A stretch of 61,525 nucleotides of DNA from a virus, in the IMG/VR virus record IMGVR_UViG_3300037279_000301, positions 1-61,525 of that record. One strand, 5' to 3'. Each line of letters opens with the position of its first letter. The first letter of the stretch is position 1. A program made the translations under genes and the position numbers. Shown here piece by piece: positions 1,382 through 56,644 of the stretch. The notes beneath the pieces are model-generated. The model ran no database searches and had not been told where the DNA came from. It saw only the letters and a list, made by a program, of their open reading frames with translations.

Positions 1382-1618
1382 TCATTGCCCCAACCTAAAA
1401 ATTTCGTCATTGGAAAGTTTTCGAACAGTCCGCAAAAATCGAAAAATCCTAAGGACATTGCCATCTTCAGACACATTAATGTAAACTATCGTTTCGGCTG
1501 GATCATATGGATCATGATAATCAATCTTACTCACAATTCCAATATTAATTGAATCGAGTAGACCCCACATTGTATCAAATTCAACATGATCCCCGGTCTT
1601 AATTTTTACGGTTTGCAT
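1382..1618 (-). CDS. SH3/KOW-like small protein, C-terminal Leu-rich tail family
   Basis: 78 residues. It contains the GDHVEF turn followed by short predicted strands, and ends with KLSNDEIFRLGQ. Both features match the array of small paralogues at 10.4-14.2 kb (GDW(V/I) turn, then a final ALIxRL-type tail). It is the first gene of a pair with 1066-1380. Function unknown; an SH3-like or KOW-like beta-barrel is inferred from the pattern only. Confidence 0.6.
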   Translation of the reverse strand: MQTVKIKTGDHVEFDTMWGLLDSINIGIVSKIDYHDPYDPAETIVYINVSEDGNVLRIFRFLRTVRKLSNDEIFRLGQ

Positions 1619-1835: not shown

Positions 1836-2321
1836 TTAATATCTCCTAGTTGAAAATTTCGTTCGAATTGCGCCAATAAGATCATTAAGATTTTCATAAA
1901 GAGGAACATTGTATTTTTTGCAGACGATATCAATATTACCTTTACGATAGTACCCTTTTGGGCAGCATACTAAAACTTGCTGCGTTTTTGCCTGAAGGCC
2001 CAATTCCAATAAAGTAACAGGCGCCTTAGTTAATTTAGCCTGTTCTTCATCTGACCCAAATACATAAATGCACAAATTAGCTAAATCTTGCCCCGCTAAT
2101 TCCCATTCAACCTGTTGCCGAAATCGATGATCCTCGATGCTTTGCACCCATGAAGAATCCCAATCATCACGCCTGGGATTAAGAAAAATAACATTTAACT
2201 CGGTTAATGCATTGACGACTCGCTCTTGCCAATTTTCTGCTTTTCCTTGCTCGATCGCACCGCCAAGAAAAATGACTGGTCGATCGACGGTATAAGCATT
2301 CGGGGCCTTAACTTCAATCAT
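1836..2321 (-). CDS. nucleoside 2-deoxyribosyltransferase-like protein
   Basis: 161 residues. The N-terminal PVIFLGGAIEQG followed by W-Q, then FLNPRRDDWD and an acidic EWEL motif, is the signature of the nucleoside 2-deoxyribosyltransferase-like family (Nuc_deoxyrib_tr2 type), which cleaves N-glycosidic bonds and transfers deoxyribose. The second half carries LELGLQA and a strand LVCCPKGYYRKGN. It sits upstream of zinc-ribbon and SH3-like genes and a few kb from the NAD salvage genes, consistent with a nucleoside or nucleotide salvage role. The exact substrate cannot be inferred. Confidence 0.72.
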   Translation of the reverse strand: MIEVKAPNAYTVDRPVIFLGGAIEQGKAENWQERVVNALTELNVIFLNPRRDDWDSSWVQSIEDHRFRQQVEWELAGQDLANLCIYVFGSDEEQAKLTKAPVTLLELGLQAKTQQVLVCCPKGYYRKGNIDIVCKKYNVPLYENLNDLIGAIRTKFSTRRY

Positions 2322-2329
2322 TTTTAATT

Positions 2330-2527
2330 CTAACCTTTAATTTCAACTAAATGCCAATTATATGCATCGTCGCCTGGGCGGTAACAATACTTATATTGGA
2401 AATTACAGTACTCTAGCCAATAAATTATTCCGGATATTGGACACCGACGGGGGAGATACGTAAATCTCTTAACATTTTTAATATCACCAATAAGAGGCAA
2501 CGGCTTTGGCTTTGGATAAAATCTCAT
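2330..2527 (-). CDS. hypothetical protein (65 aa)
   Basis: Basic, aromatic-rich small protein with Pro-Lys repeats at the N-terminus (FYPKPKPLPL) and several Tyr and Cys residues in the second half. It ends 8 nt before the deoxyribosyltransferase-like gene. No family recognised. The 157-bp gap upstream (2528-2684) holds at most a 29-codon frame (2546-2635) that I do not call. Confidence 0.5.
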   Translation of the reverse strand: MRFYPKPKPLPLIGDIKNVKRFTYLPRRCPISGIIYWLEYCNFQYKYCYRPGDDAYNWHLVEIKG

Positions 2528-2684
2528 TTATTCTACCTTCAACTTCTAAAGTTGTTTAGCAAGTTTTAAAACTGCGGGACTTATATTCTCGATGAGTTTC
2601 AAATATTCCGAATCGACCAAATCTTCTATGTACATACTAATGAAATTAAGCGAGGCCGCTTCGGAAAATGAAATGTTCGCTGTC

Positions 2685-2888
2685 TTACTCTTCGTCTTCC
2701 CATTCTTCATAATCGTTATCTGGGGTCGTCGCCTGCTTCGTGAACATCGGAAAGAATAAAATTATGCTTCCCACTAACGAGAGTGCAATACCGATGCGTG
2801 GATTAAAACCGAAAATTAGGCAAGCGATAACGATTATAATTCCGCCAAGTCTAACAAAATTATTAAATGATTTATCCGAAAGTCTCAT
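2685..2888 (-). CDS. small two-helix membrane protein
   Basis: 67 residues with two hydrophobic helices (about residues 13-27 and 33-48) and an acidic tail ending EEWEDEE. It starts directly downstream of the nadV stop codon, so it is in the same transcript. Function unknown. Confidence 0.6.
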   Translation of the reverse strand: MRLSDKSFNNFVRLGGIIIVIACLIFGFNPRIGIALSLVGSIILFFPMFTKQATTPDNDYEEWEDEE

Positions 2889-4310
2889 TTATACCTCCGC
2901 CAATTCTCGGATCTCATCCAACGTCTGGTGACGCAGCACAACGCCGTTTCGGAAAACAAGCTCGAGTTGATTACCATATACACCTTCACCATTATCCTGC
3001 ACCGTACTGAATAACCCAGTATTCTCAGAATAAATTAGCGCTGGACGACCCTTGAAAGATGCCTTTGATGGATCGCCTTTCGGCGCCTTCCACACAGGAG
3101 TATCAATATTGTCGAATCGTACATTGCAGAACTTCATAGCAGACTTCATTGAATCGCGATTAATTCCCTTATGGAGTAGCCCACCGCCCATACCCACAAC
3201 AATGTTTTCGACACTCCACCCGGCGTTCTTAACCGTCTCATACAATTTACGGATGGAAAAAATATCCATCCCATCGCCCCAAAGCAGGCCAACACATGGA
3301 GTCAGTACCTTGTATCCTTTACTATTAACAGAATAACCAAACCGATCTCCGAGAATTTCAAGCAATACAGGAACCTTAACAGAAGGATCACCAGAATCTG
3401 GACGAGCAACAACTTTAGTTTTACCATGAAGAATTTGATCTCGGAAAGTACCACCTAAAATTTCACGAACAAAATATTCATCATCGTAACTGTCGATCAC
3501 GATACTAAGAACGGGCGCATCTTTATATGCTTCTAGAATTCGTGCAACGACATGTCGTTCACCTTCGGGGCCTTCAATAGTTTGCACAAAATGTTCGGTT
3601 GCCGGAACGCTAAATGCACTTACCCTATCTGCTCCGTAATATTGATGCAGCAGACTCATTCCAATAACGGTGTCTGTGCCCTTAAAATTCATAAGATGCG
3701 CGGCGCCGCCAATTGCAGCCTGATGGGGCCCTGAAACAGCACGGCCGCCAAAATCATGCAACATAAACGGTAAAGCAGCATAGGAATCGGAGGTCAGTGA
3801 GAGATATTCCTTGGCTAGTTTCTTAACTTCGCGACTTTGGGTAGCAACAATACTCCCATACCAATTTCGCATTAGTCGAGTTTCACACCAACCCGGCAAC
3901 CAGGCGCATTTTTCATCTGTGCTTTCAACGGTGAAGACGACATTGTTAATGCCATTATTGGCAATATTAAATGGGCGGCCCTCCTTGATTGCTCGAATTT
4001 CAATTGGCAATCGTCCATGATACCTATCCAGAATATACTGCCATTGTGCCTTAGGATAGGGAAAGCCGCCATAAAAATGAATCTGACTATCTGCATAAGC
4101 CTCATCAAGATTTTCCTGCGTAAAGAACTTGCCCTCGAATTCGGCCATTAGCTGATACTGCAATCCGAAAAATACTGCCTCGCTATAAATTCCACCGCGG
4201 TTGCAGTAGTAATTCATTGCCTCGGTTAGATTGCTGGGGAGAACCTGGGGATGAGTATTCTTGTAGCTATCGGTATCCAGCAGCGGATTAATTACTAGTG
4301 GGGTTGGCAT
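2889..4310 (-). CDS. nadV: nicotinamide phosphoribosyltransferase (NAMPT/NadV)
   Basis: 473 residues, the usual length for this family. It makes NMN from nicotinamide and PRPP in NAD salvage. Visible signatures are DTDSYKNTHPQ (residues 12-22), FKGTDT with the substrate-contacting Asp around 213, VPATEH with the catalytic His around 240, and ARPDSGDP (302-309) that binds the phosphoribosyl group. A sigma70-like promoter (TTGCAA, 17 bp, TATAAT) lies 24 nt upstream and a GGAAT-type ribosome site precedes the ATG. With the NadM-Nudix gene at 6611-7600 it forms a complete two-step route from nicotinamide to NAD, matching the phage NAD-reconstitution pathway described as NARP2. Confidence 0.95.
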   Translation of the reverse strand: MPTPLVINPLLDTDSYKNTHPQVLPSNLTEAMNYYCNRGGIYSEAVFFGLQYQLMAEFEGKFFTQENLDEAYADSQIHFYGGFPYPKAQWQYILDRYHGRLPIEIRAIKEGRPFNIANNGINNVVFTVESTDEKCAWLPGWCETRLMRNWYGSIVATQSREVKKLAKEYLSLTSDSYAALPFMLHDFGGRAVSGPHQAAIGGAAHLMNFKGTDTVIGMSLLHQYYGADRVSAFSVPATEHFVQTIEGPEGERHVVARILEAYKDAPVLSIVIDSYDDEYFVREILGGTFRDQILHGKTKVVARPDSGDPSVKVPVLLEILGDRFGYSVNSKGYKVLTPCVGLLWGDGMDIFSIRKLYETVKNAGWSVENIVVGMGGGLLHKGINRDSMKSAMKFCNVRFDNIDTPVWKAPKGDPSKASFKGRPALIYSENTGLFSTVQDNGEGVYGNQLELVFRNGVVLRHQTLDEIRELAEV

Positions 4311-4333
4311 TTTAATATTCCTTTCTTAATCTT

Positions 4334-4362
4334 ATTATATATTATTTTTGATAATATTGCAA
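4334..4362 (-). promoter_or_regulatory. sigma70-like promoter of nadV
   Basis: Minus strand TTGCAA (4357-4362), 17-bp spacer, TATAAT (4334-4339). The spacer is entirely A+T. Confidence 0.65.
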
Positions 4363-4365
4363 GAA

Positions 4366-4824
4366 TTATTTTGGCCATTTTGAAAAATCAAACGGTTCTT
4401 TCGGATTGGCCCAGTCATCGTCCGTTAATCCGTTTTCGGTATAATAACCGGCGAACGCAATTCGAAGATTTTGTACCAATGCATCCGGATCGAAGTCATT
4501 TTCAGTTCCATCCATTGTTGCACATTTAACGGCGTATCGTCCCGCAGCTACGATTGCTCGATCAAATTGTTCTCGGCTTAAGGTAATTGTTCTCCCGGGT
4601 TCCGATTCGTTCCAAATACTAATATGAATTTCACCGTTGCCGCCCATACGAAACGGCATAGGCGGCGCATTGTACCCAGTATCTGATTTCTTGTATAACC
4701 AATGATCTTTGGGAAGATCCATGGACATTACAGCAAATCCCGAGCCGTCCCCTAAGTCTTGGACTTCGTTAATTTTTCCATTGCAGTCTGTTGCGAGTTG
4801 TGTTAATGTATCCACGACGGCCAT
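4366..4824 (-). CDS. hypothetical protein (152 aa)
   Basis: The start is ATG at 4824 (MAVVDTLTQ), which has GGAGAG 5 nt upstream; the longer frame would need an unsupported TTG. The acidic protein contains FRMGGNGEIHISIWNE and ends FDFSKWPK. No family recognised. It lies directly upstream of the nadV promoter. Confidence 0.6.
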   Translation of the reverse strand: MAVVDTLTQLATDCNGKINEVQDLGDGSGFAVMSMDLPKDHWLYKKSDTGYNAPPMPFRMGGNGEIHISIWNESEPGRTITLSREQFDRAIVAAGRYAVKCATMDGTENDFDPDALVQNLRIAFAGYYTENGLTDDDWANPKEPFDFSKWPK

Positions 4825-4844
4825 TTCACTCTCCAATTTTAATT

Positions 4845-5081
4845 TTATTGTTCCAGCCGGTGTACTAATTCTTTCTCAATGAAATCTAATGCCCACAACC
4901 AGGCAAAATATTCGGCTTGGACTCCATTTTTATCCCATCGAGTATCGACCATACGCCGGTTGTCGGCATAAATAAATCCATCCGAAAAATAAGCCTTTGG
5001 ATAAGATTGCAACACGATATACTTATTTTTTTCTAATGCGGGAGTAAGCCACGAATTTAGAAAAGATTTATCAAATTTCAT
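4845..5081 (-). CDS. hypothetical protein (78 aa)
   Basis: Small aromatic-rich protein (WLTPALEKNKYIVL, QAEYFAWLWALDF) ending FIEKELVHRLEQ, a tail similar to the C-termini of the SH3-like family elsewhere in the window. Its ATG overlaps the stop of the 5078-5326 gene (ATGA). Confidence 0.55.
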   Translation of the reverse strand: MKFDKSFLNSWLTPALEKNKYIVLQSYPKAYFSDGFIYADNRRMVDTRWDKNGVQAEYFAWLWALDFIEKELVHRLEQ

Positions 5082-5326
5082 TTATAGATTTCTTTCATAC
5101 CGTAAGATAATTTTTCAGCAAGTGCTTTATTTTTATCGATAATTTTATTAATCTTCTCGAGTTTAGCGAGACGATCGACTGTTAGCTTTTCAATGGCGGA
5201 TGTTACACCATCCAATGAATCGGAATATCCGGCTGCATCTGCATTCTGAATTCTCCATCTCCACCCATCTCCGGTGTTGTCTGGCTCAATTATTACCTTT
5301 TCCCAAACAGATAAAAGATTTTTCAT
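5078..5326 (-). CDS. hypothetical protein (82 aa), C-terminal coiled coil
   Basis: The N-terminal half has GDGWRWRIQNADAAG, and the second half is a Lys/Leu/Ile heptad-like helix. It overlaps both neighbours by 4 nt (ATGA), so three genes are translationally coupled. No family recognised. Confidence 0.58.
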   Translation of the reverse strand: MKNLLSVWEKVIIEPDNTGDGWRWRIQNADAAGYSDSLDGVTSAIEKLTVDRLAKLEKINKIIDKNKALAEKLSYGMKEIYK

Positions 5327-5859
5327 TGCGCACCCTTCTTTAATTTTTCAATACAAATTAGACGATATTCATTCGCGGTGGTTTCATTAACAAATCCTGC
5401 AATCCTTTCATCGTCTAGATAAATAGCATATTCTTTAAAGAATATGCTGTTAACATCATATTCTTCCCCAGCAACAACCCTAACTCGATCTTCCGGAGTT
5501 TTTTCGGTTTCTACGAATTTATTGTATATCTTTTGTGCGAAGCCTACGGGGAAGACATATTCCTGGTAGTAGTTTAAAAGTTCTTCATCGAGAATAATTT
5601 TAAAGCGAGTAGCCGCGGTCAACATCGCTGCGGTCATCGAGCGCACTGCTAAAGATTCGGTATCATCTCTAAAATTTTTGCTATCATTTGCAGCAGCGAT
5701 CATATCTTTAACTAGGTCATGGCCCACAGCAGACAGCGTATTATCTGAATTTAAAATTCTTTTTAAATCATTAATTAGGTCTACAAACATATAAGAGTCA
5801 TCATCTTGATAGCGATAAACCAAATCTTGCGCGGCATCAAATTCTTCTATAATATTCAT
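5323..5859 (-). CDS. hypothetical protein (178 aa)
   Basis: The start is ATG at 5859 (MNIIEEFDAAQD) with GAGAGGAAAC immediately upstream; 12 extra codons upstream are not used. The protein is acidic and mostly helical, with RSMTAAMLTAATRFKIIL in the middle and EYDVNSIFFKEYAIYLDDER near the end. No family recognised. Confidence 0.62.
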   Translation of the reverse strand: MNIIEEFDAAQDLVYRYQDDDSYMFVDLINDLKRILNSDNTLSAVGHDLVKDMIAAANDSKNFRDDTESLAVRSMTAAMLTAATRFKIILDEELLNYYQEYVFPVGFAQKIYNKFVETEKTPEDRVRVVAGEEYDVNSIFFKEYAIYLDDERIAGFVNETTANEYRLICIEKLKKGAQ

Positions 5860-5872
5860 GTTTCCTCTCGTA

Positions 5873-6148
5873 TTACTCGATATTAATTTTTCCAAATAAA
5901 GAATATTTTGTTATTTTGTGCTTTCTATACATTGGCGAGATCTTTTTCTGGATCATTTTTAATAGGTCACTTAATAAGATGCAAATCACTCCAATAAGAA
6001 TAACCGCTAGAAAAAATGCCCACCAAATCGGAAAAATAATAACGCCGAACCAATATTCTGCAATGGTTAAATCTAATAGATTAGAACCATCCGATAATCC
6101 AAATATTGTCATAATTTTATAATGCCATGAATTTTTACGAATTTTCAT
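5873..6148 (-). CDS. small membrane protein (91 aa)
   Basis: The start is ATG at 6148 (MKIRKNSWHYK) preceded by AAGGATAA; it lies just after the stop of the 6150-6329 gene. One long hydrophobic segment or hairpin (VIIFPIWWAFFLAVILIGVI) is followed by a basic cytoplasmic-type tail. Role unknown. Confidence 0.6.
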   Translation of the reverse strand: MKIRKNSWHYKIMTIFGLSDGSNLLDLTIAEYWFGVIIFPIWWAFFLAVILIGVICILLSDLLKMIQKKISPMYRKHKITKYSLFGKINIE

Positions 6149-6149
6149 A

Positions 6150-6329
6150 TTATCCTTCCGTGTTCGTTTCCTTCCAACGCTGCTCCCAATTTTTGTCAAC
6201 CTGTATTGCTGCGTCCTCTGGATGTCCGGGACGAATCTGTGCGCCGGGATGCCATTGTGGTAATTCGACACTGCCATCTAGGCGGGCCTTAGGAACATAC
6301 TCAACCCCATCGATAACAACTTGTTTCAT
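6150..6329 (-). CDS. small hypothetical protein (59 aa)
   Basis: A 60-codon frame starts MKQVVIDGVEYVPKARLDG and ends WKETNTEG. It has a strong AGGAGA ribosome site 5 nt before the ATG, and its stop is 1 nt before the next start. The VVIDGVEYVPK opening is common on small phage proteins. No domain recognised. Confidence 0.62.
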   Translation of the reverse strand: MKQVVIDGVEYVPKARLDGSVELPQWHPGAQIRPGHPEDAAIQVDKNWEQRWKETNTEG

Positions 6330-6378
6330 CGTTTCTCCTGATATAACAGTAACAACAGTTGAGTGAATTAACGATAAT

Positions 6379-6609
6379 CTATCTTGCTAGTTTATCGAGT
6401 AATTTCTCATCGAAATATTCACGCCATTTACCAACTCGCCATTTACACGGCAAAATAACATTATAGATGTGATTCATAATATATTCAGGTTTACTACAAT
6501 CGATTACCTCTGCCACTCCGATGTGCATGATAACTTTTCCAAATCGCGTAACAATAATTTCGCTATTGTCATCGGAAAAATCCCAGTCGTATTCATTTTC
6601 GATTGGCAT
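6379..6609 (-). CDS. hypothetical protein (76 aa)
   Basis: Small soluble protein (MPIENEYDWDFSDDNSEI) in which the chosen ATG falls just after the NadM-Nudix stop. An ATG five codons earlier overlaps that gene and cannot be excluded. It ends LLDKLAR. No family recognised. Confidence 0.55.
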   Translation of the reverse strand: MPIENEYDWDFSDDNSEIIVTRFGKVIMHIGVAEVIDCSKPEYIMNHIYNVILPCKWRVGKWREYFDEKLLDKLAR

Positions 6610-6610
6610 T

Positions 6611-7600
6611 TTATACTTGCCCATATAGATGATTCTTTAACATTTTGAAAAGAATCTGATGTTCCTTTTCGAACATATCCTCTGTTACTGCTTCGATCGG
6701 GAAAAATCGTGTAGTACTAATATCGTCGCCGCCGGTAGTCTCGAGACTACCTACTTCGCCGAGAAAGAAAATGGTTTTAATCGTTTCGGAACTATCTCTA
6801 TATCGCCAATCGTCAATCTGGGTACTTCCAATATATTCTAATTTTCCGGGAGTGGTAAGCGTTTCTTCCATACTTTCCATAGTAGCATCAGATTCATAGC
6901 TAACATTTTGCGGGCGTAGTTTGCCCATCGCATGACCACCGGGAAATCTATATCCCTTTTCATCACTCCGCTTCGCTAACAACAGTTGAATATCATCTTC
7001 AACATTCAACGATACACGCTCTCCTGAAGCTACTCGGAAATCTGGATTCTTAATCTTACTACGATGAATAATTGCTACATCAACGGTTGGAATAACTCGA
7101 TCAAACGTGTTTCTTGTTGCGTAAATAACTCCAGCTCTGAATTCGGGACTATCCAATGCTTCGTTGGCCGCTACATTTCGAAGAGTGGTACCGGAAATTG
7201 TCTGATCTACCGGCATCGTCAATTCAACAACCTTACGACGGCCAGAATAAGATTTCAAGAAACTATCGCGACTTCCATACAAAGTGGCCTTGCCGTACGG
7301 CACCCTCTCTGTAATTAGTCGATCAAGATCCTGGCTCCATAATTCATCTGTCTTCCGATTATGAATCGGATAAACTTCATAATTAGGATATGCTGCATGA
7401 ATCATTTTTCGCCTAGTATCAAAATCAAGCGGATCATTTTTTGTCGGTGCTATTCCAACCGGCAGGCAGCCTAGGAAAACGATGACCCGTGGATGAATTC
7501 TACCTACTGCATCGAGTAATGCTCGATGACCCTCGTGCAATTCTGGTAATTGAAACCTAGCAACCAAAACACCATAATCGGGCTGTGTGATATTACTCAT
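6611..7600 (-). CDS. nadM: bifunctional NMN adenylyltransferase / Nudix hydrolase (NadM-Nudix)
   Basis: 329 residues from the ATG with AGGAAG upstream (five further codons in frame are not used). The N-terminal nucleotidyltransferase has a VARFQLPELHEGH segment containing the HxGH motif (22-25) and an ISGTTLR motif matching (I)SxTxxR, as in NMN adenylyltransferases that make NAD from NMN and ATP. The C-terminal half is a Nudix domain (GGHAMGKL, then ESMEET); the box keeps the metal-binding Glu pair but lacks the usual Arg and Gly, so Nudix activity is less certain. It acts after NadV to complete NAD salvage. Confidence 0.9.
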   Translation of the reverse strand: MSNITQPDYGVLVARFQLPELHEGHRALLDAVGRIHPRVIVFLGCLPVGIAPTKNDPLDFDTRRKMIHAAYPNYEVYPIHNRKTDELWSQDLDRLITERVPYGKATLYGSRDSFLKSYSGRRKVVELTMPVDQTISGTTLRNVAANEALDSPEFRAGVIYATRNTFDRVIPTVDVAIIHRSKIKNPDFRVASGERVSLNVEDDIQLLLAKRSDEKGYRFPGGHAMGKLRPQNVSYESDATMESMEETLTTPGKLEYIGSTQIDDWRYRDSSETIKTIFFLGEVGSLETTGGDDISTTRFFPIEAVTEDMFEKEHQILFKMLKNHLYGQV

Positions 7601-7886
7601 TGTTCTTCCTTTCACTGTCGGTTAAATAATTTTCATATTTTCCATTGTTAGCGTAATATGCGTCCCATGATTCTTTGGAAATTTGAGTGGTATATGAAGA
7701 TCCACGTCGCTTTTCCGAAAGAAGTGATCGCCGCTTTTCCCAATAATTAGCACGTAGCACAATAGCAAAAATGAAAATAGTTAAAAAAGCCAAATACCAA
7801 TAAAAATTACGATAAACGAAAAACAGTTGAACCGCCAACAGGCAAAATTCTACCGTTAGTACTGTCCAAATAAATTTACGCATCAT
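7593..7886 (-). CDS. small membrane protein (97 aa)
   Basis: Two adjacent hydrophobic helices (about 4-22 and 29-45) are followed by a basic cytoplasmic-type tail with Ser and Tyr. Its start overlaps the stop of the NADAR gene and its end overlaps the NadM start, so all three are one translationally coupled unit. Function unknown; the placement suggests expression with the NAD genes. Confidence 0.6.
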   Translation of the reverse strand: MMRKFIWTVLTVEFCLLAVQLFFVYRNFYWYLAFLTIFIFAIVLRANYWEKRRSLLSEKRRGSSYTTQISKESWDAYYANNGKYENYLTDSERKNNE

Positions 7887-8325
7887 TTTCTCTTTCTTGC
7901 AACTCTTTTCGAATTGCCATCAAAATTTTTCCAAGATGATTTTTACCGACACCCTTGCAAACGCCCCAAAATGTATCACCCCAGGTATTACCCTCGATAA
8001 GAATTGCATCTTCGGTCGCCAACAATTTTTGTCTTAATTCCGAATTCGTAAACTTTTGGCAAAGCAAATCAACCATTACATTAAGTTTAACGTCATTCCA
8101 ATCGGATCGGAGGGTAGTCAGCCGCCCTAATCTTTTTGCTTTACCGGGAGTAGTTGCGTCCCGTATTTCGATCCGTTGATCTAAATTAAAGGTTTTGCTC
8201 GCCTGATATGCGCGTTCAACATCTCGGTACCGAAAATTATCATCTTCGAGCCGAATGCCGCCGGGTACATAAGAAAAATTACTTAAAAACTCAAACTCCC
8301 CGACAAATTTATCAATAATTTTCAT
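7876..8325 (-). CDS. NADAR-domain protein (YbiA-like N-glycosidase family)
   Basis: 149 residues, full length for the family. Signatures are an FEFLSNF opening, RDVERAYQASK, a WNDVKLNVM segment and the closing GDTFWGVCKGVGKNHLGKILM. NADAR proteins cleave N-glycosidic bonds on phosphorylated riboflavin intermediates or ADP-ribose-linked substrates. Located first in the operon that also holds NadM-Nudix, it probably acts on ADP-ribosyl compounds, but this is inference. A TTGACT-17-TATAAT promoter ends 9 nt before the ATG. Confidence 0.85.
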   Translation of the reverse strand: MKIIDKFVGEFEFLSNFSYVPGGIRLEDDNFRYRDVERAYQASKTFNLDQRIEIRDATTPGKAKRLGRLTTLRSDWNDVKLNVMVDLLCQKFTNSELRQKLLATEDAILIEGNTWGDTFWGVCKGVGKNHLGKILMAIRKELQERENDA

Positions 8326-8334
8326 TACTCTTTT

Positions 8335-8363
8335 ATTATAATACTCGCAGTGAGAATAGTCAA
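8335..8363 (-). promoter_or_regulatory. sigma70-like promoter of the NADAR-NadM operon
   Basis: Minus strand TTGACT (8358-8363), 17-bp spacer, TATAAT (8335-8340). The -10 ends 9 nt before the start codon, so the leader can only be a few nucleotides long. Confidence 0.68.
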
Positions 8364-9246: not shown

Positions 9247-9450
9247 CTATTGGTGCGGCACCATATTTATAATAATTGCCGGCCAGCACAAAACAATTAC
9301 TAATAAAAGCGCAGCGGATAGTATCGACCTATCAGAGTTGGTTTTGCTCATTAATTCATCCAGCATTTGATTGATACTATCCCATTGCAAATGCAGTAAA
9401 TATCCTGCGATTAAAAAACCAGTTAGAAAATAAAATAAAAGAAAAAACAT
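9247..9450 (-). CDS. small membrane protein (67 aa)
   Basis: The start is ATG at 9450 (MFFLLFYFLTG), overlapping the stop of the nucleotidyltransferase gene and preceded by GGAGAAAT. Two hydrophobic helices flank a polar loop. Function unknown. Confidence 0.58.
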   Translation of the reverse strand: MFFLLFYFLTGFLIAGYLLHLQWDSINQMLDELMSKTNSDRSILSAALLLVIVLCWPAIIINMVPHQ

Positions 9451-10430
9451 TATTTCTCCAATCCGTAAAACTTTTTCAACCAAGGAAGAATCCATTCTTC
9501 ATATTCTTTTCGTAGTTCGACAGTCAATGCCGGTAACTTTGATTCTAGTGAAAGTGTCTTTAATGTATCTACCCCAACTAAAATCTGCTCACGAATTTTT
9601 TCAATAGGATGCTCTCCACGACGAATAGATTTTAAATACTCAGCGTAATCTGATGTGTACGGATATTTAAGTTTCTTTCCAGACAATAAATCAATGCCCT
9701 CATTAACGATCCTTAAAGCATGGGAAACTGCCTTCCAATCGGCGGTAGACTGCGCAGCATCTTTTGCTCGAGTTCCAAATTTTGCGACTTGAACATTTAC
9801 AATATCAAGATTAGTTTCAAATGCGCTCGAATACGGTAAAATCTTTTCCAATAATTTAATACACGGCCGCATATTTTGGCCGGCCGAATCAATAGCATAA
9901 TCGGTTATTGAAAAATATTTCGGATAATCTTTTTCAATTTCTACGGCAAGTTCCTCAAATTCAGCTTGATGATCTACAATACGATGCAATTTTGGAAATC
10001 TTTTAAATAAATCTCTAGCGTCCAGGGCCGCATTTAATCGGTCACCTTTATCAGAATACACTTGGGCCTGGTTGACCGCATATCCTACCATTGATTTAAT
10101 ATTAGCCGTCAAAAATTTATCGTGTAATTCGGTGCAAAACAATGGAAATCTTCCATCGTATATCGCCTGCTCACCGTCAACACACTCAACCGATGCAGCT
10201 AGCTCTAGCGCATATGTCTGCCCCTCCATAAAATCTCTTGCAAAAACCTGTAGAGGAACATTTTCACAATCGATATCGTTAATAACGGGCCTGGTATTTT
10301 TAATCGACTTACCAAGCAACAAGGAATCTAACTCAGGAAGTACAATGTATTTCATATCCCTATCCGATTCGGGTGTAGAAGTTCCATAAAGTTGTGATCC
10401 GTATAGACAAGAAAATAAAATCTTTTGCAT
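9450..10430 (-). CDS. Pol-beta-superfamily nucleotidyltransferase (RlaP-like)
   Basis: 326 residues. The N-terminal GSQLYGTSTPESDRD (11-25) is the nucleotidyltransferase Gly-Ser plus paired-Asp motif of the predicted nucleotidyltransferase family related to RlaP. The remainder is helical with many conserved-looking Trp/Tyr. Such proteins transfer a nucleotide to a protein or nucleic acid; the target here is unknown. It leads the transcript ending at the HD hydrolase region and is preceded by the SH3-like array. Confidence 0.78.
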   Translation of the reverse strand: MQKILFSCLYGSQLYGTSTPESDRDMKYIVLPELDSLLLGKSIKNTRPVINDIDCENVPLQVFARDFMEGQTYALELAASVECVDGEQAIYDGRFPLFCTELHDKFLTANIKSMVGYAVNQAQVYSDKGDRLNAALDARDLFKRFPKLHRIVDHQAEFEELAVEIEKDYPKYFSITDYAIDSAGQNMRPCIKLLEKILPYSSAFETNLDIVNVQVAKFGTRAKDAAQSTADWKAVSHALRIVNEGIDLLSGKKLKYPYTSDYAEYLKSIRRGEHPIEKIREQILVGVDTLKTLSLESKLPALTVELRKEYEEWILPWLKKFYGLEK

Positions 10431-10442
10431 ATTATATTCCTT

Positions 10443-10667
10443 TCAATGCGATAATTTCCAAACAAGTGCCTCGTTGTACGATATTTTAAAAAGTTTGATT
10501 CCCGCAACGTTATATACGTAAGTATTTCCGGAACGAACAGTCATTTTAAACATCAGATTGCCGCTGTTATCAACCTCAACTATTCTTCCAAGAAATTCTT
10601 CCCCAGTGTAGCTCCTATAAATTGCCCAATCACCCAACTCAAAAATATGTTCGTCGCGTTTAGCCAT
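10443..10667 (-). CDS. SH3/KOW-like small protein with C-terminal tail
   Basis: 74 residues. LGDWAIY, GRIVEVDNSG and a final NEALVWKLSH match its neighbours. A paralogue of the genes at 10669, 10899, 11484, 11903, 12130, 12363 and 13920, so it comes from tandem duplication. A beta-barrel fold is likely; function unknown. Confidence 0.65.
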   Translation of the reverse strand: MAKRDEHIFELGDWAIYRSYTGEEFLGRIVEVDNSGNLMFKMTVRSGNTYVYNVAGIKLFKISYNEALVWKLSH

Positions 10668-10668
10668 A

Positions 10669-10902
10669 TCATTTTTCCAAGTAATGAATTAAAATTTTAT
10701 CTATGGTTGCTTTTTCAACCCACCGCAGGCTTACAGAAGTCCTATAAGATACTCCTAAAATTTCGGCTGTTTCAAAAATAATAGACTCCGAGAATCCTAA
10801 ATCATCACCGAGGTATATTCCCAAATATCGGTTACCCGACATTCCGGTATAAAAAATAGCGTCCCCCGGATTTAATTCATCACCTGTCTTAGTGTAAATC
10901 AT
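10669..10902 (-). CDS. SH3/KOW-like small protein with C-terminal tail
   Basis: 77 residues. NPGDAIFYTGMSGNRYLGIYLG is the barrel-type opening and ATIDKILIHYLEK the shared tail. It overlaps the upstream 10899-11117 gene by 4 nt (ATGA). Part of the tandem array; function unknown. Confidence 0.65.
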   Translation of the reverse strand: MIYTKTGDELNPGDAIFYTGMSGNRYLGIYLGDDLGFSESIIFETAEILGVSYRTSVSLRWVEKATIDKILIHYLEK

Positions 10903-11117
10903 TTCGATAACCGATGAAGTAAAATCTTATCGGTGGGAACAATCACACATTTTTCGGTAACCATAATTCCGCCGTAGGCCCCACCCTCTTCAGTAACGAG
11001 TACTATTTTCTTTGGACGAATTTCAGATATTTGTAACAATATAAGAGTTTGCCCCTTATAGCCAGGTGTAAGAATCCAATCTCCTACTTTAAATTCATCA
11101 CCGAAAAAATCTACCAT
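10899..11117 (-). CDS. SH3/KOW-like small protein with C-terminal tail
   Basis: 72 residues with KVGDWILTPGYKGQ at the N-terminus, a Gly-rich centre and the tail PTDKILLHRLSK. Member of the same paralogous array, translationally coupled to the next gene. Function unknown. Confidence 0.65.
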   Translation of the reverse strand: MVDFFGDEFKVGDWILTPGYKGQTLILLQISEIRPKKIVLVTEEGGAYGGIMVTEKCVIVPTDKILLHRLSK

Positions 11118-11137
11118 TATTGCTCCAATTTATAAAT

Positions 11138-11467
11138 CTAATATCCCGAAATAACACCAGATTGCACCTCTAGATACCATGCACCAAAATCGTGATCTTT
11201 ATTAAGAATATCTTGTTCAGCTTCTGCGTCAAATAATACCTTAGCCTTACTAAGGTATTCATACATCTTCTTCTCATCGCATTCTTGAAGCATATCAAAA
11301 TTATGCTGAAATGCTAGGTAATGTCCGATAAGATTCTTTTGCAAGACGAGCTTAATTTCATGCTCGGTTAATTCACGGTATTTTAGAACGCGCTTAAGAG
11401 TTTCGAGTAACGGATAAAAAGTATTGCCAAAGTCATTATCGCCTAATACAATTGCAATTGTTCTCAT
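11138..11467 (-). CDS. hypothetical protein (109 aa)
   Basis: Helical, charged protein starting MRTIAIVLGDNDFG and ending WYLEVQSGVISGY. The 28 nt around its start (GACGGAGATAATATGAGA and flanks) are nearly identical to those before the 11680-11889 gene, so the translation start region was duplicated. No family recognised. Confidence 0.6.
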   Translation of the reverse strand: MRTIAIVLGDNDFGNTFYPLLETLKRVLKYRELTEHEIKLVLQKNLIGHYLAFQHNFDMLQECDEKKMYEYLSKAKVLFDAEAEQDILNKDHDFGAWYLEVQSGVISGY

Positions 11468-11483
11468 ATTATCTCCGTCGTTA

Positions 11484-11696
11484 TTATTCCTCTAGCCGAT
11501 AAATTAGTGCTTCCGCATCAGTTAATTTTGTTATTATTTCATCCCGTAAACTACACCAGCCAAGGTATTCTGGAAATCGAATAAGAAAACAATCACGCCG
11601 GTAATCGACTACCGAAATAACTATTCCTATTTCGCTAGGCAGTTCATTGAGTCCTTGAACCCGAACATAATCACCAATGTTAAACATTATCTTCAA
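11484..11696 (-). CDS. SH3/KOW-like small protein with C-terminal tail
   Basis: 70 residues. NIGDYVRVQGL, GIVISVVDYRRD and the final TDAEALIYRLEE identify it as a member of the paralogous array. Its start overlaps the end of the 11680-11889 gene by 17 nt. Function unknown. Confidence 0.65.
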   Translation of the reverse strand: MKIMFNIGDYVRVQGLNELPSEIGIVISVVDYRRDCFLIRFPEYLGWCSLRDEIITKLTDAEALIYRLEE

Positions 11697-11889
11697 AATG
11701 GAGCCGGTCAGTCAACCTCTTAATACCGGCGGTATATCTAATTACATCTGCAGAATATTTTGCATAATTATCAGCTGCAATACTCCACTCAATATCCGTC
11801 AAATTTTCGCCTTTGATACATGCAGAATAATAGGCTTTTTGCATTTCGACATATTTTAATTTCTGTGCCAACGTAGCAATTGCTCTCAT
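11680..11889 (-). CDS. hypothetical protein (69 aa)
   Basis: Helical small protein (MRAIATLAQKLKYVEMQKA) with no tail of the SH3-like family. It shares its ribosome-site region and first codons with the 11138-11467 gene. No family recognised. Confidence 0.58.
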   Translation of the reverse strand: MRAIATLAQKLKYVEMQKAYYSACIKGENLTDIEWSIAADNYAKYSADVIRYTAGIKRLTDRLHFEDNV

Positions 11890-11902
11890 ATTATCTCCGT
11901 CG

Positions 11903-12133
11903 TTATTGCCCGAGTCGCCAAATCAATGCTTCATCATCGGTTAATTTTCTTAATGCTTCCACCACTATTATGTCATAATAATCAAAACTATAATAAATTA
12001 TAGCATACATTCGTCCGCCATATTCATCCTGCCGAAAACGATTTATTTGGCCAACCGTAGTATTTTTAAAAGTATCGATAAATTCTACAAAATCATTAAC
12101 CCGAAGTTCAATTCCATTTTTATCACATATCAT
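11903..12133 (-). CDS. SH3/KOW-like small protein with C-terminal tail
   Basis: 76 residues. RVNDFVEFID, VGQINRFRQDEYGG and the final TDDEALIWRLGQ place it in the array. It overlaps the 12130-12363 gene by 4 nt (ATGA). Function unknown. Confidence 0.65.
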   Translation of the reverse strand: MICDKNGIELRVNDFVEFIDTFKNTTVGQINRFRQDEYGGRMYAIIYYSFDYYDIIVVEALRKLTDDEALIWRLGQ

Positions 12134-12363
12134 ATCGATAACTGGTAGATGAAAAGATCATCCGGTGTTAACTTAACAAGCGACTGAGAATACCAGATAT
12201 AATTTTCATCCTTAATCTCATATAAATTACAATAGGCAGCGCCAGTGCCATTATCTTTTCCAATAAATTTAACTTTTTTCGGTAAAATACCAAAAATCGA
12301 AACTACCGAAAAGACATAAACCCAGTCGCCTACCGAAAATTTAACGCCATTTCGATCGTGCAT
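12130..12363 (-). CDS. SH3/KOW-like small protein with C-terminal tail
   Basis: 77 residues. SVGDWVYVFSVVSIFG, PKKVKFIGKDNGTG and TPDDLFIYQLSI follow the family pattern. It overlaps both neighbours by 1-4 nt. Function unknown. Confidence 0.65.
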   Translation of the reverse strand: MHDRNGVKFSVGDWVYVFSVVSIFGILPKKVKFIGKDNGTGAAYCNLYEIKDENYIWYSQSLVKLTPDDLFIYQLSI

Positions 12364-12623
12364 TACAACCCCAGTCGATAAATTAGCATTTCATCCGGCG
12401 AGACCTTCATCAGATCCAAAGGTGACCAGGGAAACTTCGATCCATTTTCATTCTCTAAGATTGCAAGTTCAGGAAAAAATTCATTTGCTGCAGGTTTAAA
12501 AGAGACAACCTTTCTTGGTAAAAATTGATGCTGCCGTGAAAACGAAACAGAGCATACCCAATCACCAATTTTCAGTGGCGTATTTAACCGATCGCAAAAA
12601 GTAGTTGTAATCTTATTTGTCAT
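12363..12623 (-). CDS. SH3/KOW-like small protein with C-terminal tail
   Basis: 86 residues from the ATG that overlaps the upstream stop (ATGA at 12620-12623). KIGDWVCSVSFSRQH, PRKVVSFKPAANE and SPDEMLIYRLGL are the family elements. Function unknown. Confidence 0.65.
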   Translation of the reverse strand: MTNKITTTFCDRLNTPLKIGDWVCSVSFSRQHQFLPRKVVSFKPAANEFFPELAILENENGSKFPWSPLDLMKVSPDEMLIYRLGL

Positions 12624-12931
12624 TGACTCAACTTCCAAATTAAAAATTCAGCGGGTGAACACCCATGGAACTTCCGACCGTATTTCATGTTGCAATACAT
12701 TTCGTACCCGGAAAGAGGAGCATTCGTCCAAGACGAGGAAATATCTTTTCTATTAATCCTCTTTTCGACTCCGATATAACTGCCATCAACTAATTCACGA
12801 GAGAGCTCGTACGCAATGGCCTTGGCTCGTCGACGAGTACGTGTGAACCCTCGATAATCCAGCCAACGGCCATCTTTGTCGCACTCAAAAATACTCCACT
12901 TTCCGATAATTGCCCAGCTAGGCCGTCTCAT
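12620..12931 (-). CDS. hypothetical basic protein sharing the C-terminal tail
   Basis: 103 residues. Basic and Arg/Trp-rich (RTRRRAKAIAYELSREL), it lacks the GDWV turn but ends SPAEFLIWKLSQ, the same tail as the neighbouring SH3-like family. The tail on a different body suggests it is a mobile module. Function unknown. Confidence 0.6.
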   Translation of the reverse strand: MRRPSWAIIGKWSIFECDKDGRWLDYRGFTRTRRRAKAIAYELSRELVDGSYIGVEKRINRKDISSSWTNAPLSGYEMYCNMKYGRKFHGCSPAEFLIWKLSQ

Positions 12932-19730: not shown

Positions 19731-21320
19731 TTAAGAACACTTACTTGATCCGCAACTCGCGCAATGATAGCATCCGGATTCATATATTAACTGGCCGCCG
19801 CATTGGGTACATTTTTCGCCATCAACTTTTTCTCCATCTCGAATATATCCAGCAAGTAATTTTTTAACATGAAAAAGAAAACTAGCAAAAGTTACACCTT
19901 CAACTTTATCGAGCTCTGCAACAACATTCTTAATTCGAACGCCATGCCGTAATAATAGTCCGATAGTTCTAGCAATTTTTACACTGTTTGAATCATTGCC
20001 GCACTTTCGTACTGTTGATTCTATATATTGTGCGGGAATACCTTTTACTCGAGCTAAATTAATTAATCGATCGACCACATCGTTCGTAGTCACCGATTTT
20101 TCTATGGCATTAGTTTGCACAAAAATTGAAATTGGTGCCTTATTGGCATTCAACCCGATTGTACAATACCATTTTCTTGATCCGCCGGATTCATGATCTC
20201 TAAGAACTTTCATTTCGGCCGTGGTCGTATCCGGCAATTTAACATCATCTAGAATAATTTCTTCATCAGAACTTTCATCTTTTTGATCTACAGCCGAAAG
20301 AACTGAACTCATCGTTCCTGCGCGATATGTCGTAATTCCTTTTATATATCCTGTTTCAAAAGCATCAAGATAAATATTTTGAAATTTTTCAAACATATAA
20401 TCACTGGGTAAATTGACAGTTTTACTACAGGCAGAGTCCGCGCACTTGCACCAACCCTTAAGGTCAGTAATATGCTCTTCAACAGATAATTGGGTGGTGG
20501 TAGCCGCCCAATCCGCAGTTGGGTCCCACTCGCCGATCTTTGAGAGATATCGAACCCCATAATCCTGGCATAACACTTCCTTTGTTAATCCTCGATTTTT
20601 ATCAATTTTATAAACGGTACCATATTTATCTACGCCTCGTAAAATTTGCTCGTCGCCTTCTTGTGCAAATTTAAACATTTCCGTTTCAAAAAATTCACCT
20701 TGACTCCAAACCGGAGTAACTAATCGGATATGATCTGGCATATGTGAAACAATAACCGTTCGAGTATATTCTGGTAGGAAAGCGGGCTCAATCCCACCCG
20801 TAACAACCTGTGCTAAACAACCACTATTTCCATTCGGTTGATTCGAAAAAAGCGCCGAATTTCGTATACCATTCTTTTTCATACGATTTCGCAAGTTAAC
20901 TGGTAAATCAATATTATCCCAGAAAGGACTTAATACATGATTATCTGGTTCGCATAATGGGAACATTCCCTTTTCATCGGCGAGATTTAATGAGGCTTCA
21001 ACTCCGGCGTGAGTGAAAACTGTTAATAATTCATGCTGAATTTTAAGCGCCTCTTTTGATCCATATCGAATCTTCATCATAATAAGAGAACTACCCCAGC
21101 CCATTACGCCGCATCCTATCCGCCGTTTATTTCTCATAGTACTTACATATTCGGGTAATGGTGCATCACTATACTCATTTACATTATCTAGAAAACGAAC
21201 AAGGTAGCCTACATATTTTTTAACTCTATCTAAATCAAACCCAATTCTATCTTTATTTACAAATTGGGTAAGATTCATTGTGCCTAAACAGCAAACACCC
21301 CCGGGTGCTAACATTTGCTC
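19731..21320 (-). CDS. nrdJ: class II ribonucleotide reductase NrdJ, exon 2
   Basis: Codes for the last 529 of 869 residues, starting at EQML after the intron. GGVCCLGTMNLTQFV carries the second redox Cys of the reductase fold; the C-terminal domain ends CTQCGG...CASCGSSKCS, the Cys-rich tail typical of adenosylcobalamin-dependent (class II) enzymes. Reduces ribonucleotides for DNA synthesis. A Met codon (ATG, 21323-21321) one base before the exon lies inside the intron and is not used after splicing. Confidence 0.85.
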   Translation of the reverse strand, partial: EQMLAPGGVCCLGTMNLTQFVNKDRIGFDLDRVKKYVGYLVRFLDNVNEYSDAPLPEYVSTMRNKRRIGCGVMGWGSSLIMMKIRYGSKEALKIQHELLTVFTHAGVEASLNLADEKGMFPLCEPDNHVLSPFWDNIDLPVNLRNRMKKNGIRNSALFSNQPNGNSGCLAQVVTGGIEPAFLPEYTRTVIVSHMPDHIRLVTPVWSQGEFFETEMFKFAQEGDEQILRGVDKYGTVYKIDKNRGLTKEVLCQDYGVRYLSKIGEWDPTADWAATTTQLSVEEHITDLKGWCKCADSACSKTVNLPSDYMFEKFQNIYLDAFETGYIKGITTYRAGTMSSVLSAVDQKDESSDEEIILDDVKLPDTTTAEMKVLRDHESGGSRKWYCTIGLNANKAPISIFVQTNAIEKSVTTNDVVDRLINLARVKGIPAQYIESTVRKCGNDSNSVKIARTIGLLLRHGVRIKNVVAELDKVEGVTFASFLFHVKKLLAGYIRDGEKVDGEKCTQCGGQLIYESGCYHCASCGSSKCS

Positions 21321-21564
21321 CATCGGTTATTTCAACGCGCTTTATCGTTGATCTCCTCATTTCTAAGGAGTGTCGGACTATATCTTCATACTATGTATGT
21401 CGGGCGCTCGTGGTAGGATTATTGATTTAGTTTCTCACCTACTAGTCTCTACGCTTTTCAGAATACTGTTATACTATTTCTTCTGACTTAGCTCGGTATT
21501 TCCAGTTTAAAGGATTCACCGAATTCACCCAATGATTATACTGAGGCCAGCTTTACGCAATTTG
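21321..21564 (-). other. group I intron (244 nt, no ORF) in nrdJ
   Basis: Removing 244 nt joins AATCCCTGTGGT to GAGCAAATG and restores the continuous N-P-C-G-E-Q-M active-site sequence in frame. The 5' exon ends in U and the intron in G, as group I introns require. The intron's GGCCTCA segment can pair with the exon end TGTGGT including a U-G pair at the splice site (P1). The core has AGACTA followed by AAGATATAGTCC, matching the R and S elements of T4-type (IA2-like) introns. Confidence 0.85.
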
Positions 21565-22584
21565 ACCACAGGGATTCGTTGTCGCAATTTTCTCTAAATA
21601 ATTAAGTTGATTAAATTTATTTGAACGATCTAAAAATAAAATTCCTGGTTCGTTTCTATTATAGGTTGATTGAGTAATCAAATTCCATAACCATTCAACT
21701 TTAACCGTTTGATAAATTTTAATTGGATATCCTTTTGATACCCACGATGTTAGATCCCCAAACCATTCCTTTTTATATTGCGGATGAGTAGTTTCTGGAT
21801 AAACCAAATCCCAAGTAATTGCATTAATTTCATTTTGGGGTGCCCCATCACGTTTTAATTGAGATAAATTTAATACTTTTTCCATAAATTTATCGGTGCA
21901 ATTGACACTCATATTAAATTTGGATAATCTGCCGGGAGTTTGTTTTGCTGTAATAAATTCAATAATGTCCGGATTCCAAACAGACATACACAACATCTGG
22001 GCGCCTTTTCGGATTTTACCTTTTGCTTTTTTATTTAATGATTTTTTACCAGAGCCTGAAGTAATAATTTCTGAACTGCGGTCAAAGAGCTCGAAAAATT
22101 TAACAGCCCCAGGCGTTTCCACCCCTATACCATTGATAAATGTGCCGCGTGGTCGAATAAAATCTGCGACGGCTCCTGCTCCCCCTTCAGACTTAAGAGT
22201 GAATGATTGATATTTAAGATACTCTAAAATGCCTTCTAAACTATCGGCATCATATTTAGGATTCGGGAGAACAAAGCAATTAATTAAGGTTGTTCCCTTA
22301 AATTCTGTTCCGGCATTTGCCAAAATTCTACCACCGGGAACTACTTTGAATCCTGTAAGCATATCATAAAAATTGTATGCCCATTTAACTCGTAATTCTT
22401 CTGTTGCCTCCACGCTTGCAATTGCTTTTGCAACACGCCAAAAATTATCATTAATATCGGCGTCTTTATAATCTTTATAAGTAGCAGACCAGACCTCTTC
22501 ACTAAAGCTATCTTCAAATTTCGTTGTTTGTTCTGGTCTGGGGAGATAAGAAAGTCCTTTCATTGTTTCTTGTGTTGTGTTCAA
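21565..22584 (-). CDS. nrdJ: class II ribonucleotide reductase NrdJ, exon 1
   Basis: 340 codons from a TTG start with AGAGG 8 nt upstream; ATG at codon 8 is the alternative. It contains the N-terminal activity region, INCFVLP with the first redox Cys, the Gly-rich SEGGAGAVADFI region, and ends with NPCG carrying the thiyl-radical Cys. The frame runs into the intron and stops after three codons unless spliced. Confidence 0.85.
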
Positions 22585-28662: not shown

Positions 28663-28899
28663 TTACTTCTTGCTGCAAGTCTCACCTTCTAATTTGTATT
28701 TGCCCCATTCCGGGGTATCATTATGCGTTCGAAACCTTCGTTCCGCATGTCCACGAGTTTTCTCTAGAATGATAAAAAATGAATCGGATTGCCAATTATA
28801 TTCCCACCATCCGTTAAGAGTAGTTTTTCCATCTGTCCATTTCGCAGTCTTCATCCTATCGGTTATTGGTCGAAACATCATTCCAGCAAAATCAACCAT
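28663..28899 (-). CDS. hypothetical protein (78 aa)
   Basis: Small Trp- and Gly-containing protein (LNGWWEYNWQSDSFF) whose ATG overlaps the ligA stop (TAATG). It is therefore translated with ligA. No family recognised. Confidence 0.58.
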   Translation of the reverse strand: MVDFAGMMFRPITDRMKTAKWTDGKTTLNGWWEYNWQSDSFFIILEKTRGHAERRFRTHNDTPEWGKYKLEGETCSKK

Positions 28900-30947: not shown

Positions 30948-30958
30948 ACCTGTTTTCC

Positions 30959-30998
30959 TCACTGAAATAATTATAGCAAACGCCGGGTTAAGTGTCAA
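30959..30998 (-). promoter_or_regulatory. early promoter cassette copy (ligA)
   Basis: Minus strand TTGACA (30993-30998), 17-bp spacer, TTTGC-TATAAT (-10 at 30970-30975), then TATTTCAGTGAGGA. The -35 overlaps the stop codon of the 30995-31171 gene. Confidence 0.82.
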
Positions 30999-41508: not shown

Positions 41509-41515
41509 GATACAC

Positions 41516-41791
41516 CTATTTACCTAAAAACAACGGAATAAGAACTTTTAAGATTAATGCGCCGAGTGTTGCTAATAACGAAATAATTATTGCACTTCCC
41601 CATCTTATTAACTGAGCATTTCTATTTTCTTCTATGGTGTCAATTCTAGAACTTAACCCCGATATTTGTACAGTTAAATCATCTATCCGAGATGTGTGGC
41701 TAGTTAATTCTTCATGAATCGAGATTATTCGCATATCGGCTAGCTCGACATGCACTTCAAGGTTTTTCTTCTCTAGTTCGGTTGTCCCCAT
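41516..41791 (-). CDS. holin-like protein: coiled coil plus C-terminal transmembrane helix (XhlA-like)
   Basis: 91 residues. The N-terminal 65 residues form a heptad coiled coil (IDDLTVQISGLSSRID), followed by one hydrophobic helix (IRWGSAIIISLLATLGALIL region) and a short basic end, as in XhlA-type holin-associated proteins. The ATG overlaps the TGA of a 10-codon frame starting at 41823, so translation is coupled. Candidate holin, anti-holin or spanin accessory; a structural role is possible. Confidence 0.5.
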   Translation of the reverse strand: MGTTELEKKNLEVHVELADMRIISIHEELTSHTSRIDDLTVQISGLSSRIDTIEENRNAQLIRWGSAIIISLLATLGALILKVLIPLFLGK

Positions 41792-52488: not shown

Positions 52489-53106
52489 ATGAAAATTACC
52501 GAATTATATCGACCAAAACTCGGAAAAAATTTAGAAGCCCCGGCATTTGATTATTTTAAAAAGAGCCACAAAACATCAGACTATGACTATGAGAAGCGAC
52601 AAGACCTTCAACAAGAGTTGAGAGATAAATTAAAATCCCTCGGGTGGAAACATTTAAATTCCGGAGTCTATAGTTCAGTGTTTTCAAATCCAACAAAATC
52701 TTTTGTACTTAAAATTAATAAGCGCCCAGATCCCGGCTATCAACGATACGTTAATATTGTTAAATCTCATCGAAATAAACATTTTCCAATTATAAGCGAT
52801 ATTAAAAAGATGGAAATAGCCGGTAATATCTATTATGTTTATTTAATTGAAAAATTAATATCCATTCCAGCTAAAATGGCATTTAATTATGAACGCTGGT
52901 TCGACTCTATTATAACAAAACCCGGTATTCCATTGGAAAAATTATTTTGGAATAATGTTCCAATTATATTTAAAAAACAACCAGGATTATTGAAAGCACT
53001 TCAAATAGTAGAACAATCGGCTATCTCGGAAAGCATTGACCTACACAGTAAAAACATGATGAAAAGGGCCGATGGCACTATTATTATTACTGATCCATAT
53101 GTTTAG
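52489..53106 (+). CDS. protein-kinase-like protein, copy 1 (MKITEL leader)
   Basis: 205 residues. After the MKITELYRPK leader, HLNSGVYSSVFS resembles a kinase Gly-rich loop and FVLKIN (K75) the VAIK lysine. IDLHSKNMM supplies an HxD-type catalytic loop (D184, N189), and ITDPY (D202) the metal-binding Asp. A small kinase-fold protein that probably phosphorylates or binds nucleotide; targets unknown. Paralogous to 53668-54288. Under a late promoter. Confidence 0.65.
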   Translation: MKITELYRPKLGKNLEAPAFDYFKKSHKTSDYDYEKRQDLQQELRDKLKSLGWKHLNSGVYSSVFSNPTKSFVLKINKRPDPGYQRYVNIVKSHRNKHFPIISDIKKMEIAGNIYYVYLIEKLISIPAKMAFNYERWFDSIITKPGIPLEKLFWNNVPIIFKKQPGLLKALQIVEQSAISESIDLHSKNMMKRADGTIIITDPYV

Positions 53107-55720: not shown

Positions 55721-56061
55721 ATAACTCCTGTAATTGTTCTACTGTATAATCTGATCGTGGTCCTTTTGAATGATTTTCTTTAGCTGAAATTACTCTTAAA
55801 TTTATATATGACCCTATTATTTCGGGTGGGATCGAAAACATAAATCCGTGATGTCTTGAAAATATATGATCTACATGATTATCGTTGTATGATATTTTTA
55901 AATTCTCGGGATTCACGGTATCATAAAAATAAGTTAATGATTGTGCGGTAAACCTTACTTCCTAAATAATCTACTAGATCCCAGCAATCAATATTATTTC
56001 TTCGACAAATATTCAGCCAAATTTTCTCACTATATTTTTTAATTAATTCGCTAATTTCCAT
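55668..56061 (-). pseudogene. HNH endonuclease gene between the uvsW halves, with a frameshift
   Basis: From ATG at 56061 (GGAG and AGGAAGAT upstream) the frame reads MEISELIKKYSEKIW to RTIINLFL and stops at 55921-55923. Dropping one T of the T5 run at 55925-55929 gives INLFYDTVNPENLK continuing into VDHIFSRHHGF, then IPPEIIGSYINLRVISAKEN, an HNH fold (His-Asn core with DH). Total about 130 residues. The downstream part alone is open from a GTG at 55916. It overlaps the start of the C-half by 53 nt. A sequencing error in the T run or a real frameshift are both possible. Confidence 0.72.
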
Positions 56062-56091
56062 ATCTTCCTGCTCCTGTTGGTAATAATGCTA

Positions 56092-56637: not shown

Positions 56638-56644
56638 GTTATTA

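Follow-up and report, generated by a model that had tools for sequence, protein, structure and literature searches.

Among the routes by which phages rebuild nicotinamide adenine dinucleotide (NAD) is NAD+ reconstitution pathway 2 (NARP2), a name that reportedly comes from Osterman et al. 2024. Here we compare with NARP2, and with related systems, a region at positions 1836-8325 of IMG/VR record IMGVR_UViG_3300037279_000301, a viral contig of 61,525 bases that was analysed as a whole (the window) and that encodes NadV, NadM-Nudix and NADAR proteins. NARP2 pairs a phage NAMPT-type NadV with a nicotinamide mononucleotide (NMN) adenylyltransferase, making NAD+ from nicotinamide, phosphoribosyl pyrophosphate (PRPP) and ATP, and it is described as restoring the NAD+ that NAD-depleting defences consume (PMC11984713, PMC12300627). 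In NARP1, Adps and Namat start directly from ADP-ribose, and for this pathway a glycosidase, RyDEP, was shown to feed NAD rebuilding (PMC13232231). A Nudix ADP-ribose pyrophosphatase fused to NadM links NAD consumption to re-synthesis, and in bacteria ADP-ribose was proposed to pass through this fused Nudix to AMP and ribose-5-phosphate, and from there to PRPP (PMC3680494). NADARs free guanine of attached ADP-ribose (PMC11543638, PMC11125620); those of phages were proposed to act on soluble ADP-ribose derivatives, with Nudix domains processing the freed ADP-ribose (PMC9503650, PMC7824862). Phage NadM was always found with NadV, and some phage NADAR genes have both of these as neighbours (PMC9503650, section 3.4.3).

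A sequence-only reading of the region had named four enzyme genes in it, and open reading frames (ORFs) and family searches located all four on the minus strand. Their order along that strand is NADAR (7876..8325), a 97-residue membrane-type gene (7593..7886), NadM-Nudix (6611..7600), several small genes, NadV (2889..4310) and a nucleoside 2-deoxyribosyltransferase-like gene (1836..2321). We consider it probable that this is a NARP2-type NAD-salvage region of a large tailed phage, with a YbiA-type NADAR coupled upstream of NadM. NadV would join nicotinamide and PRPP to form NMN, the adenylyltransferase half of NadM-Nudix would join NMN and ATP to form NAD+, and this two-step route would refill NAD+ consumed by host NADase defences or by the infection itself. 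NADAR would most likely be a glycosidase that releases the ADP-ribose carried by guanine bases or by small ADP-ribosyl compounds. The analysis establishes the identity of the genes, the presence of their catalytic residues, the overlap of the frames and the conserved pairing of NadM and NadV, whereas enzyme activity, the NADAR substrate, a feedback of ADP-ribose into the pathway and counter-defence as the selected purpose are inferred. The comparison draws on two close relatives in IMG/VR, which we refer to as the sisters: G001 (3300028854_000008, 127 kb) and G002 (3300028909_000017, 125 kb), whose NadV proteins are 82% and 84%, and NadM proteins 70% and 73.5%, identical to those of the window.

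NadV (473 residues) matched PF04095 (6e-31), PF18127 (4e-21) and phrog_448 (4e-127), and scored 442 bits against its NCBIfam equivalog (cut-off 405). All 17 human NAMPT active-site positions that were checked are identical in the window protein and in both sisters. In the alignment to human NAMPT, H240 corresponds to H247 and D213 to D219, which we take to be the catalytic histidine and the aspartate favouring nicotinamide, respectively. The protein scored 336 bits against human NAMPT and 311 against the bacterial NAMPT 7yqo, compared with 160 against Namat (9W5X/9W5W), and its loop between strands 1 and 2 is short and NAMPT-like, without the Namat clamp. Because the scores to NAMPT are twice those to Namat and the loop is short, NadV is classified by its sequence as NAMPT-type, a NARP2 rather than a NARP1 enzyme. 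NARP1 membership was rejected, as NadV is of the NAMPT and not the Namat type and lacks an adenine-clamp loop; no Adps-like family was found among the window proteins scanned. No bacterial relatives of NadV were found in genome_contigs.

The adenylyltransferase half of NadM-Nudix scored weakly in a single-sequence search (PF01467, 15.5 bits; cut-off 21) and a single-sequence PDB search with NadM returned nothing, such that a profile was needed. A profile built from ten NadM relatives matched the Francisella NadM-Nudix 2QJT (4.6e-34) and the Synechocystis protein 2QJO (1.8e-28) over the full length. The adenylyltransferase motifs HEGH (HxGH) and ISGTTLR (SGTxxR) are intact, with the outer histidines of HxGH kept in 64 and 65 of 68 aligned sequences, and this half is probably active. 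The Nudix domain scores above its family cut-off and retains the catalytic residues E247, E250 and E251. Set against the canonical Nudix box, GX5EX7REUXEEXGU, all three sister phages have lost the final glycine and carry four inserted residues in the loop. The basic residue before the first catalytic glutamate, which is arginine in 58 and lysine in 5 of the 68 sequences, is methionine only in the window, G001 and G002. Thus, the window protein resembles the bifunctional NadM-Nudix enzymes in its two-domain order, its HxGH and SxTxxR motifs and its Nudix acidic residues, and differs from them in the methionine that replaces arginine in REXXEE and in the four-residue loop insert. Whether the Nudix half is active is uncertain.

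NADAR (149 residues) matched PF08719 (90 bits; cut-off 35.1), phrog_1017 (6e-40) and YbiA (PDB 2b3w, 1.9e-14). None of its residues E37, K44 and E111, whose counterparts were the subject of PMC11543638, varies among 15 aligned proteins including YbiA, with which NADAR shares both sequence family and catalytic residues. The glutamate at the third position places it, by alignment, in the YbiA type and not in that of T4 gp30.3, where this residue is histidine. At the level of the family, the window NADAR could be expected to remove ADP-ribose marks. A DarT1-NADAR toxin-antitoxin was considered and rejected since, unlike in DarT1-associated NADARs, no ADP-ribosyltransferase family adjoins the gene, which is flanked on one side by a 70-residue ORF and a phosphohydrolase-like gene, and on the other by the membrane gene and NadM. 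As for a loss of catalytic residues, which the sequence-only reading had raised, alignment found the key residues kept in NadV, in the adenylyltransferase half of NadM and in NADAR.

Translational coupling of the NADAR, membrane-protein and NadM genes had also been claimed, and the overlapping frames were confirmed in the DNA. The membrane gene begins within the 3' end of NADAR, its ATG at 7886 overlapping the stop codon there. NadM begins likewise at the end of the membrane gene, where stop and start overlap as ATGAGTAA, and its ATG at 7600 follows a strong ribosome-binding site, AAAGGAAG. This ATG appears to be the best NadM start, with GTG 7615, the ORF's own start, less likely. The 97-residue product, a putative small membrane protein with an N-terminal half that is hydrophobic by eye, had no family match in Pfam/PHROG-type searches, and its gene is missing at the corresponding place in G002, where NADAR directly precedes NadM. 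An 81-residue ORF (6379..6624, minus strand) overlaps the NadM stop by 14 nt, and its G002 homologue (62% identical) lies 0.7 kb after NadM. The four named genes are not contiguous, the span holding ~13 genes. Between NadM and NadV there are 2.3 kb with six small ORFs, and the small-gene content of this gap differs in the sisters. NadV has a promoter-like site of its own, TTGCAA-17-TATAAT (4334..4362, minus strand), matched in position by TTGCTT/TATAAT and TTGACA/TATACT in the two sisters, and a good ribosome-binding site. Before NADAR there is a candidate promoter, TTGACT-17-TATAAT (8335..8363, minus strand; 11 of 12 consensus positions), which is the best match in the first 12.5 kb but only 9 nt from the ATG, and which was not seen before NADAR in G002. 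Because NadV has its own promoter-like site, with its position kept in the sisters, the stretch probably comprises at least two transcription units; a single operon from 8325 to 1836 was rejected on this ground and because the intervening genes vary between the sisters. Upstream of the region, a nucleotidyltransferase of the RlaP/phrog_388 type (9450..10430, minus strand) is a neighbour kept in both sisters.

Of 80 viral NadM loci (61 distinct sequences), 71 have NadV on the same strand and within 10 kb of NadM, usually directly after it, and the order NadM then NadV recurs in both sisters, in Tunturiibacter phage Tunturi_5, in Vibrio phage PG07 and in huge-phage records. NadM-NadV is the conserved core. 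The proposal that NadV and an NMN adenylyltransferase form a NARP2-type pair is upheld by this conserved adjacency together with the families, the full-length structural homologues and the intact catalytic residues. Relative to described NARP2 (PMC11984713, PMC12300627), the enzyme types and the predicted conversion are the same; the predicted pathway of the window differs in that its adenylyltransferase is a NadM-Nudix fusion, in the 2.3-kb distance between its two genes, each with a promoter-like site apart from the other's, and in the NADAR coupled upstream. The combination of NadV, NadM and NADAR is not new, as Iyer et al. 2022 (PMC9503650) already reported the three domains in one large-phage neighbourhood. 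What is new here is the phage lineage, the coupled order NADAR-membrane gene-NadM-small genes-NadV and the change in the Nudix box.

The part of NADAR in this grouping is less fixed. NADAR lies within 10 kb of NadM in 23 of the 80 loci and adjoins it in one sister, G002. A tree of NADAR proteins sets the window and G002 apart as a separate supported pair, and its starred branches require the linked state to have changed at least twice. NADAR beside NadM-NadV is therefore a recurrent but optional arrangement of at least two lineages; the claim that it is a linked partner holds as regards recurrence and not as regards constancy. Of 44 contigs tested over their whole length, 23 carry NADAR, and 8 of the 23 have it within 5 kb of NadM-NadV against 2.2 expected from uniform placement along the contig (p ~0.0005), a value inflated by relatedness since 7 of the 8 close cases come from one NADAR clade in which NADAR follows NadV. 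This relatedness is one of several points that weigh against our reading. NADAR is ~40 kb from the pair in G001 and more than 85 kb away in the huge phages W01 and W03, and NadV's own promoter-like site makes it probable that the genes do not form one operon. The Nudix box is altered, and therefore ADP-ribose hydrolysis by this half may be weak or lost, and no PRPP synthetase was seen. In addition, both YbiA and the T4 NADAR gp30.3 failed to rescue cells from DarT1 (PMC11125620).

Rather than countering host defences, the pair could provide a general supply of NAD+ for the NAD-using enzymes and redox metabolism of the phage. The window does encode an NAD-dependent DNA ligase (28899-30998, minus strand; phrog_3869, 1.3e-140), which is also present in G001, as well as a ribonucleotide reductase and a replication set. 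Of 45 contigs that have the NadM-NadV pair, however, just 4 encode this ligase, and it was not found in G002, so that it is unsupported as a general reason for the pair, and phage NARP2 is on record as acting against defences (PMC11984713, PMC12300627); a supply function independent of defence is possible in our view, yet doubtful. A further explanation concerns NADAR alone, which could be a YbiA-type riboflavin-damage-control N-glycosidase lying beside NadM by chance and with no tie to NAD or ADP-ribose. The protein passes the riboflavin-intermediate N-glycosidase model TIGR02464 (76.2 bits; cut-off 73.7), and NADARs are common enough in large phages (447 INPHARED records) for chance neighbours to occur. 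Against this stand the in vitro data, in which all four tested NADAR subtypes, including YbiA and T4 gp30.3, were active on guanine-ADP-ribose and released ADP-ribose from guanine (PMC11125620), and the gene arrangement, since the NADAR frame overlaps the gene before NadM and the adjacency is shared with G002 and recurs elsewhere. We thus regard a chance placement of a riboflavin enzyme as unlikely.

The least credible alternative is the broadest, according to which the whole stretch, with the 2-deoxyribosyltransferase-like gene included, is one ADP-ribose/NAD module, as had been proposed from the sequence. The family of this gene is clear (PF15891, 106 bits, cut-off 30; PDB 4mcj, 1.7e-20), all the genes share a strand within 6.5 kb, and PF15891 genes lie a few kb from NadM-NadV at loci L133 and L160. 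Three other contigs (G011, G024 and G039, carrying loci L097, L120 and L145) have such a gene no more than 1 kb from NADAR, against 0.34 expected, a hint that NADAR and the deoxyribosyltransferase may be linked in a way that does not involve NAD salvage. Nevertheless, the gene is missing in W01 as well as in the two sisters, PF15891 is not enriched near NadM-NadV (4 of 24 within 5 kb, 2.2 expected), and both the varying genes between and the separate NadV promoter-like site argue against a single unit. We consider one module very improbable; the deoxyribosyltransferase was rejected as a component and is a neighbour outside the conserved unit, not to be counted in the module. Separately, Tunturi_5 carries, just before its portal gene (L003:495-4331), a 1278-residue ORF annotated as a MutT/NUDIX hydrolase that contains a domain 44% identical to the window deoxyribosyltransferase-like protein.

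By analogy with RyDEP and NARP1, NADAR might act as a feeder of the NARP2-type pair, freeing ADP-ribose from guanine adducts or from cyclic ADP-ribose signals. The Nudix half would then cleave the freed ADP-ribose to AMP and ribose-5-phosphate; from this material and nicotinamide, the host's PRPP synthetase together with NadV and NadM would remake NAD+. The likeness to NARP1 with RyDEP (PMC13232231) lies in a glycosidase gene beside an NAD-rebuilding pathway, whose product would be recyclable ADP-ribose. However, NADAR belongs to a different family from RyDEP, and whereas Adps and Namat use ADP-ribose directly, the NAMPT-type pair of the window would need both a Nudix enzyme and the host synthetase. 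A joint NADAR-Nudix-NAD circuit in this phage is further weakened by the altered Nudix box, and we offer the feeder role as a tentative idea that is improbable on present evidence. No Tad2-like anti-Thoeris protein was found in the window.

The contig has a G+C content of ~34-43% and no detected end repeats, and its first 12 kb had no DNA-level relatives among 50,697 phage records (INPHARED). It is most likely a fragment of a tailed phage, since family scans identified a primase, a DnaB-like helicase, a DNA polymerase, an exonuclease, the ribonucleotide reductase, the NAD-dependent DNA ligase and families of virion proteins. In the gene for the large subunit of the ribonucleotide reductase (19731-22584, minus strand), a group I intron (21353-21648; RF00028, 59.8 bits, gathering threshold 50), which a fast whole-window scan missed, interrupts the NPCG active-site motif. 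The G001 gene (40093-41676 and upstream, locus L162) has at this motif an in-frame insertion of ~360 residues that is intein-like, beginning with C and ending with SN before CGEQ; an intron and an apparent intein thus occupy nearly identical spots in sister phages. Two ORFs (54290-55720 and 56092-56658) make up a split RecD-like DNA helicase gene (54290-56658, minus strand); the 372-nt gap between them, in which no group I intron was matched, holds a reading frame resembling an HNH endonuclease by eye. Two neighbouring paralogues that match the T7 0.7-like protein kinase family phrog_15752 (52489-53106 and 53668-54288, plus strand) run against the direction of most window genes. Small paralogue-like proteins of 70-90 residues with similar C-terminal ends are encoded at 10443-12638 and 1382-1618 (minus strand), with no family matches among those scanned, and a 32-nt DNA repeat, 97% identical, occurs at 11454 and 11876.

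Taken together, the region provides an intact example, from an uncultured phage, of an NAD-rebuilding pair with a coupled gene of the ADP-ribosyl glycosidase family. Relatives in which NADAR is adjacent, distant or downstream make its contribution to NAD+ reconstitution testable. If NADAR did act as a feeder, a single phage region would undo an ADP-ribose attack or signal and at the same time regain its material, in parallel to RyDEP and NARP1.

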